Positions 6,924 to 56,813 of a DNA stretch of 64,000 bases are shown here, piece by piece. Source of the stretch: an uncultured Prevotellaceae bacterium (GTDB lineage: Bacteria; Bacteroidota; Bacteroidia; Bacteroidales; Bacteroidaceae). Where the stretch lies: assembly GCA_946185285.1 (NCBI GenBank), contig CAMHIS010000002.1:1-64000 (forward strand), written 5' to 3'. The notes below the pieces were generated by a model. The model ran no database searches. It saw only the letters and a list, made by a program, of their open reading frames with translations, and had not been told where the DNA came from. The translations under genes were made by a program, and so were the position numbers. Every line of letters starts with the position of its first letter. Within the stretch, counting starts at the first letter, position 1.

Positions 6924-6925
6924 AT

Positions 6926-7217
6926 GTTTCAACCACACGGTTTTAATCCGTCAATCCGTCACCTTCGTCCTATCTGTCCCATGCTGAGCGTGTTACGTGG
7001 TGACGGATGATGGTGACGGGTGACGGATGGCTATATGCTCCGACGGCTGTAATGAGTCACGTGCGGAGAATCATCGTTCACCGCACGTGAACAATTGGCA
7101 CTGAGGCTTGGCGTATGGGAATGCGCAATGCATCCGTCACCCGCCACCACCATCCGTCATCACGTATCCGATTGATTGTCTGTTAATTACGTGGTTGTGA
7201 CGGCTGTGACGGAATTT
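6926..7217 (+). repeat. Intergenic structured repeat, copy A (core only)
   Basis: Collinear with 41021..41377 and 56415..56770: ATCCGTCAATCCGTCA...GTTACGTGGTGACGGATGATGGTGACGGGTGACGGATGGCTATATGCTCCGACGGCTGTAATGA...TGACGG. Confidence 0.92.
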
Positions 7218-41015: not shown

Positions 41016-41020
41016 TCCCA

Positions 41021-41377
41021 AATCGGTCATTAGAAGTCTTTGGCACGGAAAAACACTGTTCAACACGGTTTTTATCCGTCAATCCGTCATCTTAGCCCTA
41101 TCTACCACATACTGAGCATGTTACGTGGTGACGGATGATGGTGACGGGTGACGGATGGCTATATGCTCCGACGGCTGTAATGATTCACGGGCGGTGAACG
41201 ATGATTCACCGCACGTGAACATTTGGCACTTTGGCTTGGCGCACGGGAATGCGCCGTGCATCCGTCATCCGCCACCATCATCCGTCATCACGTATCCGCT
41301 TGATTGTCTGTTGTTTGCGTGGATGTGACGGATGTGACGGATTTAGAATTCTCTTATTTGTGAAATTGACGGCAGAT
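41021..41377 (+). repeat. Intergenic structured repeat, copy B (full length)
   Basis: Collinear over its whole length with copy C (AATCGGTCATTAGAAGTCTTT...TTGACGGCAGAT); central hairpin 41184..41219 with loop CGATGA. Confidence 0.95.
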
Positions 41378-56281: not shown

Positions 56282-56414
56282 TATCTGGCGCGCGTACGTG
56301 CATGAATGAAGTCTGGTTACACATAGCACCCCCGACACTTAACCGCCTGACTGTCAGAGCTATTCTTTCTGAGGCTGACCGCACCTAAGGGCCATCTAAA
56401 TGAGATATAGATCC

Positions 56415-56770
56415 AATCGGTCATTAGACGTCTTTGCACCGGAAAAAACTGTTCAACACGTTTTTTATCCGTCAATCCGTCACCTTCGTCCTATCTACCA
56501 CATGCTGAGCGTGTTACGTGGTGACGGATGATGGTGACGGGTGACGGATGACTATATGCTCCGACGGCTGTAATGATTCACGTGCGGTGAATCATCGTTC
56601 ACCGCACGTGAACAATTGGCACAGAGGCTTGGCGTACGGGAATGCGCCGTGCATCCGTCATCCGTCACCATCATCTGTCATCACGTATCCGCTTGATTGT
56701 CTGTTGTTTGCGTGGCTGTGACGGATGTGACGGATTTAAAACTCTCTTTTTTGTGAGATTGACGGCAGAT
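56415..56770 (+). repeat. Intergenic structured repeat, copy C (full length)
   Basis: Collinear with copy B; perfect 15-bp hairpin TTCACGTGCGGTGAA-TCATCG-TTCACCGCACGTGAA at 56577..56612; 34-nt arms 56517..56550 / 56652..56685. Confidence 0.95.
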
Positions 56771-56813
56771 TTGGAGTTCTCTCGAGCTTAATGGCCCATT
56801 AGTCTCAAAAGGC

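Follow-up and report, generated by a model that had tools for sequence, protein, structure and literature searches.

A dispersed hairpin repeat of Prevotella as a probable gene-less derivative of a DUF6078 and BT4734/VapE element

Introduction

Bacterial repeat families have usually been traced to DDE or HUH transposases. In the RAYT/REP systems, short intergenic palindromes dispersed over the chromosome flank one protein gene, which is the plausible mobiliser; the units are genome-specific and occur in single- and paired-hairpin forms. In the Bacteroidales, the nearest described repeats are BrickBuilt of Porphyromonas gingivalis, a tandem 23-nt minisatellite located between a leader and a tail (PMC4596501), and PINSR, a 188-bp repeat of Prevotella intermedia/nigrescens that is intergenic and non-coding, occurs in 177–184 copies, has an unexplained origin and was reported to be without terminal inverted repeats (TIRs) (PMC4755523). 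For the proteins that will concern us, a survey of AEP proteins lists a BT4734-like family and primase-VirE(VapE) fusions and links them to mobile-element replication; the accessible part of its text does not contain the words “inverted repeat”, “transposon” or “target site”, and describes no non-autonomous derivatives (PMC5862659). A literature search, which had most subscription journals outside its reach, gave no description of the repeat presented here, of DUF6078 or of primase-linked repeats.

The DNA analyzed here, referred to as the window, is a stretch of 64,000 nucleotides with which contig C2 begins. The assembly spans 3.08 Mb in 180 contigs, is 70.7% complete and was taken as a MAG. 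It holds three copies (A, B and C) of a gene-less repeat unit that we call the core. RAYT/REP (BIME) with the TnpA-REP Y1 proteins is a close known system (PMC6006769, PMC3733652), as the core system also pairs one protein gene, its plausible mobiliser, with many dispersed intergenic palindromes, genome-specific units and single or paired hairpins. It differs in that the linked protein is a BT4734/VapE primase-helicase accompanied by DUF6078, not a Y1 HUH endonuclease, and in that its ~9-nt units form arrays. The core resembles MITEs and BrickBuilt (PMC4596501) in being gene-less, intergenic, multi-copy and lineage-specific, with inverted ends and internal short repeats. Unlike MITEs, it was seen without a target duplication, and its two-gene counterpart contains no transposase. 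Identity with BrickBuilt was rejected, as the ~9-nt units are inverted and spaced, versus a spacerless tandem array of 23 nt. PINSR is likewise intergenic, non-coding and lineage-specific in Prevotella, and is set apart by its description as lacking TIRs (PMC4755523). With the BT4734-like primases and primase-VirE(VapE) fusions, as presented in the accessible part of the AEP survey, the core system shares the protein domains and the link to mobile elements (PMC5862659).

Results

Copies A, B and C in the window

The first-pass annotation had described the three copies as nearly collinear, and the alignment agreed, giving ~92% mutual identity across 282–357 bp (92% for A vs. C and 92% for B vs. 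C). All of them lie on the + strand. Copy A contains a complete core at 6946..7213 (profile match to model positions 1–275; 92% to C) that carries no ORF, as had been noted. Its left-end (LE) hairpin at 6946..7029 is composed of inverted ATCCGTCA/GTGACGGAT units (repeats D1–D3, I2, I3, I8 and I9), the central dyad pair GTCACGTGCGGAGAA-TCATCG-TTCACCGCACGTGAA occupies 7056..7091, and the right-end (RE) hairpin CATCCGTCACC..GTGACGGCTGTGACGGA occupies 7131..7213 (repeats I1, I12 and I14; profile match). The cores of copies B and C were located at 41074..41342 and 56467..56735, respectively (both matching model positions 1–276), and copy C served as the query of the genome search. Copy C folded with an energy of −167.9 kcal/mol, compared with −111.0 ± 5.7 for its shuffles (z −10). 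The earlier annotation had recognized no RNA or mobile element family in the repeat, and no match to a named family was found here; Rfam 15 gave no match at gathering score over the whole window.

The outer flanks are additional sequence in copies B and C and are mostly missing from copy A. In B and C, the core sits inside an outer MITE, an arrangement that we call a composite. Copy B retains only the left TIR of this MITE, CCCAAATCGGTCATTAG, as an exact match at 41017..41033, and the right TIR is lost; its inner right flank TTAGAATTCTC..TTGACGGCAGAT (41343..41377) is common to copy C and most composites. Both TIRs of copy C are degenerate, the left one being detected by TIR search at 56411..56427 with two mismatches, and the right one, CTTAATGGCCCATTAG, being recognized with the inner right flank at 56736..56806 when the sequence was read against intact composites. 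Copy A has neither TIR. It keeps, however, a ~20-bp remnant of the inner left flank, TTTCAACCACACGGTTTT (6924..6945), which aligned with B, C and other composites such as L009, and which abuts the stop codon of the transglycosylase gene. This remnant indicates that copy A is a truncated composite copy that lost its envelope and kept a complete core, rather than an independent insertion. Copy A had been proposed to be either truncated or the minimal unit; truncation applies to the envelope, and the core is the recurrent unit, which is not reduced in A.

Anatomy, copy number and context of the core

The core is 269 bp long (roughly 270), is made of GTGACGGAT units of ~9 nt in inverted and spaced groups, and has a hairpin at each end. 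LE reads ATCCGTCA(C)ATCCGTCAC, ~37 nt and GTGACGGATGATGGTGACGGGTGACGGAT, and RE reads CATCCGTCACCCGTCACCATTATCCGTCACCAC, ~30 nt and GTGACGGATGTGACGGAT. Each can form its own hairpin, LE is inverted relative to RE, and the terminal 18 bp of the core are inverted repeats. The center consists of two TTCAC-N5-GTGAA dyads, whose spacer is exactly 6 nt in 48 of 51 full cores, that is, in all 48 copies with recognized dyads. The center-to-center distance of the dyads is 21 bp, or two turns of the helix, a spacing suggestive of paired sites for protein binding. Invariant columns were mostly found in the end units and the dyads, with many columns of the end hairpins hardly varying, and the stretch between the center and RE was free to vary in both length and sequence. 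T runs often follow the long hairpins. No target-site duplication of the core itself was seen around the cores inspected.

The family is far larger than the three copies initially assumed. When copy C was used to search the genome, 90 places were returned, with both strands of a single palindromic element counted in many cases, and a profile search of the genome stretches gave 56 core stretches, three of which are parts of one split element. The core-terminal 18-mer GTGACGGATGTGACGGAT occurred 58 times with up to two mismatches, against one control match. These 18-mer counts and the profile search indicate at least 50 copies in this 70.7%-complete genome. At first pass, 40 of the 56 were full-length (267–325 bp, mode 269). 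The intergenic location proposed for the window copies was reproduced, with 0 of 51 scored cores lying within a long ORF (ORFs called mechanically, and a few of the 51 taken from other species). A position just 3′ of a + strand gene in constant orientation was not a property of the family, as the 48 scorable copies comprised 18 convergent, 22 tandem (12 and 10 by orientation) and 8 divergent contexts.

A gene-bearing relative of the core

A degenerate pattern, GTGANNGANGTGANNGA, was used to find core-like layouts in other Prevotella, and detected genomes carrying inverted repeats of the core layout with different letters. In two of these genomes, the repeat lies directly 3′ of a gene with BT4734_N and VapE domains, which led us to search the own genome of the window for PF08800. 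Three matches were obtained, and one of them, on contig C69, sits within a split core. The core profile detected its LE (E = 7.8e-19), center (2.5e-6) and RE (5.9e-20) in the order and orientation of the core. This 2,531-bp element is arranged as LE, a DUF6078 ORF, the dyads, a BT4734_N-VapE-DUF3874 ORF and RE. The DUF6078 ORF is intact and encodes a small cysteine-containing protein of 159 aa (E = 1.2e-22), and the second ORF, also intact, encodes a primase/helicase-like protein of 556 aa. No transposase, integrase or relaxase ORF was found within the element. Its LE, center and RE are 77%, 77% and 79% identical to the nearest cores, so that the C69 element is related to the A/B/C subfamily but is not its direct parent. 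It is the only gene-bearing element of unit GTGACGGAT known, and its contig might have been misbinned, since the assembly is a MAG.

The nature of the larger protein was examined further. At AEP motif I, the DxD metal site, it reads IVVLTVGPL, whereas clade-1 relatives keep DFDH/DYDD, and the catalytic aspartates look lost in this protein and in the sampled members of the inverted-end clade (see below). Priming activity is therefore doubtful, and proteins of that clade may act as helicases or initiators instead. PADLOC gave a CRISPR-associated PrimPol domain match and nothing else. In a PDB search, the larger protein matched only the VapE helicase (7pds), weakly, and the DUF6078 protein gave no match. 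This two-gene, apparently full-length counterpart in the same genome supports the suggestion that the repeat is a non-autonomous element. Copy A is probably a non-autonomous, internally deleted derivative of a 2.5-kb DUF6078 and BT4734/VapE mobile element.

Other BT4734/VapE loci

A comparable arrangement was identified in a single-contig complete genome of another Prevotella (G024, locus L414), where a DUF6078 homologue is followed by a 710-aa BT4734/VapE gene. Comparison of ends and genes placed this pair between 158-bp inverted ends that are 87% identical and composed of a different unit, AATGTCACT. Nine of 63 Prevotella primase loci had inverted flank pairs exceeding the 99th percentile of cross-locus controls; at L445 and L448, the pairs are a long way from the gene, which makes them less persuasive. 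The nine include L375 (2263–4766; G000:C110), a second BT4734/VapE element of the own genome, which encodes 715 aa between 97-bp inverted ends of unit TGACAC. No DUF6078 was seen between these ends, and a search of the window for derivatives of unit TGACAC found none. Unit arrays were enriched beside BT4734/VapE genes (23 of 128 flanks vs. 11 of 189 controls, p = 6e-4), the controls being a small, partly core-bearing set in which four of the 11 matches are GTGACGGAT cores, and some detections being weak. Eleven distinct examples had a DUF6078 homologue close to the primase gene. A tree of 64 proteins placed all 12 rows labeled as inverted-ended in one of two main clades, with the label assigned at a cut looser than the 99th percentile and near-copies included. 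BT4734/VapE genes were present in 98 of the 150 Prevotella genomes examined. Separately, genome G166 (L345–L349, L362) carries ~74-bp single-hairpin elements of unit GTGAYAGAT in many places, which look like solo ends of the primase-element class, and a core-style inverted repeat of unit GTGAGGGAA (CCTCACTTCCCTCACTTCCCTCACC..GTGAGGGAAGTGAGGG) was observed on C1 of the own genome (G000) at L064, ~1380–1460.

The outer envelope and candidate transposases

The outer envelope of composites of the B and C type is bounded by 17-bp ends, CCCNAATCGGTCATTAG. In copies that retain both of these ends, 5-bp AT-rich duplications border them, namely TTCAA (L004), TTTAT (L008) and TTAAA (L002). A core-less form of 142 bp with the same TIRs as B and C was also found, with TTTAT on either side (L055:1376-1517, C1:40387-40528; L060:1501-1642, C7:43027-43168). 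From sequence, the envelope has the classical signature of a MITE (17-bp TIR and 5-bp duplication), so that the term “MITE-like” used in the first-pass annotation applies to the outer envelope of the B/C type. For the core alone, no duplication was seen. These duplications, on composites and core-less form alike, would be expected if the repeats were MITEs of an ordinary IS and the GTGACGGAT core an inert passenger. We consider this explanation unlikely, as many cores (C3, C4, C6, C58, L153, L162 and others) are free of the envelope and lie in varied contexts, and the three core regions are found again at the DUF6078 and primase genes. In addition, the 70.7%-complete genome revealed neither a gene between a pair of CCCNAATCGGTCATTAG TIRs nor an autonomous partner of the 142-bp form. 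The ends and duplication lengths of IS1380 fit, and its transposase (PF13701) was tried as a candidate for that reason and rejected, being absent from the 70.7%-complete own genome. A ~37-bp element consisting of little beyond two CCC-type TIRs, CCCAGAAAGGTCATTGGACCCTAATGACCGGTTTGGG, was additionally observed (L064:1481-1517, L067:1480-1517; C1:110409, C30:7661).

Mobilisation by a Y1/RAYT protein was also considered. Two Y1 (PF01797) matches were obtained in the own genome, L130 over the curated cut-off and L131 below it, and neither locus has TGACGGAT or TTCAC dyads in its flanks, which led us to reject this candidate. L130 (G000:C12:22137-25496) is a RAYT-like Y1 gene of 282 aa. Motifs of the form GGGGACGGTTC(C/T) recur in its surroundings and seem to be a REP family of its own, unrelated to the GTGACGGAT cores.

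Relatives and orthologous sites

Goat and rumen Prevotella also carry cores. They were found at seven loci of Prevotella RGIG1522, from goat abomasum, in Prevotella Tb.RUG.323 and in Bacteroidales RUI002, with fragments in others. BLAST of copy C against 59 other genomes gave no match, one clear case was found among other genomes of the genus, and the phage and plasmid collections searched held no core match. An insertion apparently common to RGIG1522, Tb.RUG.323 and RUI002 (L140, L153 and L187) implies that core copies appear to be inherited vertically as well. At the C3 site, RGIG1522 has only an LE hairpin of 64 bp, bounded by the same two junctions. This remnant fits recombination between direct GTGACGGAT units, by which single-hairpin repeats could arise. 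In four related genomes, the sites of A, B, C, C3 and part of C6 yielded no precise empty site; around A, B and C, relatives show rearranged flanks and broken synteny. At the site orthologous to copy A, 3′ of the same transglycosylase gene, genome G177 (L472) carries a repeat of the core layout with a different unit, GTGCGGGAA, and a similar dyad; such a repeat in a different species may hint at a site preference for the end of this gene.

The intergenic location, the excess of convergent over divergent contexts (18 vs. 8), the strong folding with T runs after long hairpins, and the intact state of the core in composites whose outer flanks decay would all suit a REP-like chromosomal repeat with a host job, such as a bidirectional terminator, an mRNA 3′-end stabilizer or a nucleoid-protein site. 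This is quite improbable given the confinement of the core to a few species and the broken synteny around A, B and C, and its context is explicable by the purging of insertions from genes and promoters. A repeated regulatory or ncRNA element, which had been offered as one possibility for copy A, gained no positive support, with no Rfam match and an orientation to genes that is not fixed. Least probable of all is the reversed direction, in which a core already serving the host as a regulatory or structural repeat would have received the DUF6078 and primase genes by insertion: cores are far commoner than the single gene-bearing copy of unit GTGACGGAT, but two separate insertions at two positions of one core would be required, another species (L414) has the same gene order flanked by inverted ends whose unit is unrelated, and inverted ends accompany other primase genes too.

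Discussion

Derivation of copy A from the DUF6078 and BT4734/VapE element would have removed both genes and retained three cis regions, LE, center and RE, which could serve as recognition sites. Retention of the central dyads in copies without either gene argues that the center is needed in cis. In the mechanism proposed here, the unit arrays and dyads would be bound by the DUF6078 and VapE/primase proteins in the manner of an initiator on iterons, and these proteins would generate a hairpin-ended intermediate by copying or excising the element. Gene-less copies may likewise be mobilised in trans by the same proteins. Integration could be accomplished by host repair, such as end-joining or template switching, or by some nuclease activity. 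For copies B and C, whose cores also lie inside a DDE-type MITE with CCCNAATCGGTCATTAG ends and a 5-bp duplication, this MITE would constitute a second route of spread.

A broader picture can be put forward more tentatively. It is possible that Prevotella harbors widespread small transposase-less elements driven by DUF6078 and a VapE-type helicase, the latter often carrying a dead AEP primase domain, and that each element ends in inverted hairpin arrays built from its own ~9-nt unit. Such elements would seed genomes with gene-less hairpin repeats, which would account for many intergenic repeats of the genus that have so far had no explanation. The arrangement of the cores points to an undescribed repeat-spreading system in Prevotella without a recognizable transposase. 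The only genes located between the matching ends encode a helicase/primase-like protein and DUF6078, for which no role in the spread of repeats was found described. If confirmed, this would be an additional kind of repeat-generating system, would give a testable role to the BT4734/VapE genes carried by so many of the Prevotella genomes examined, and would suggest where lineage-specific intergenic repeats, PINSR among them, may have come from.
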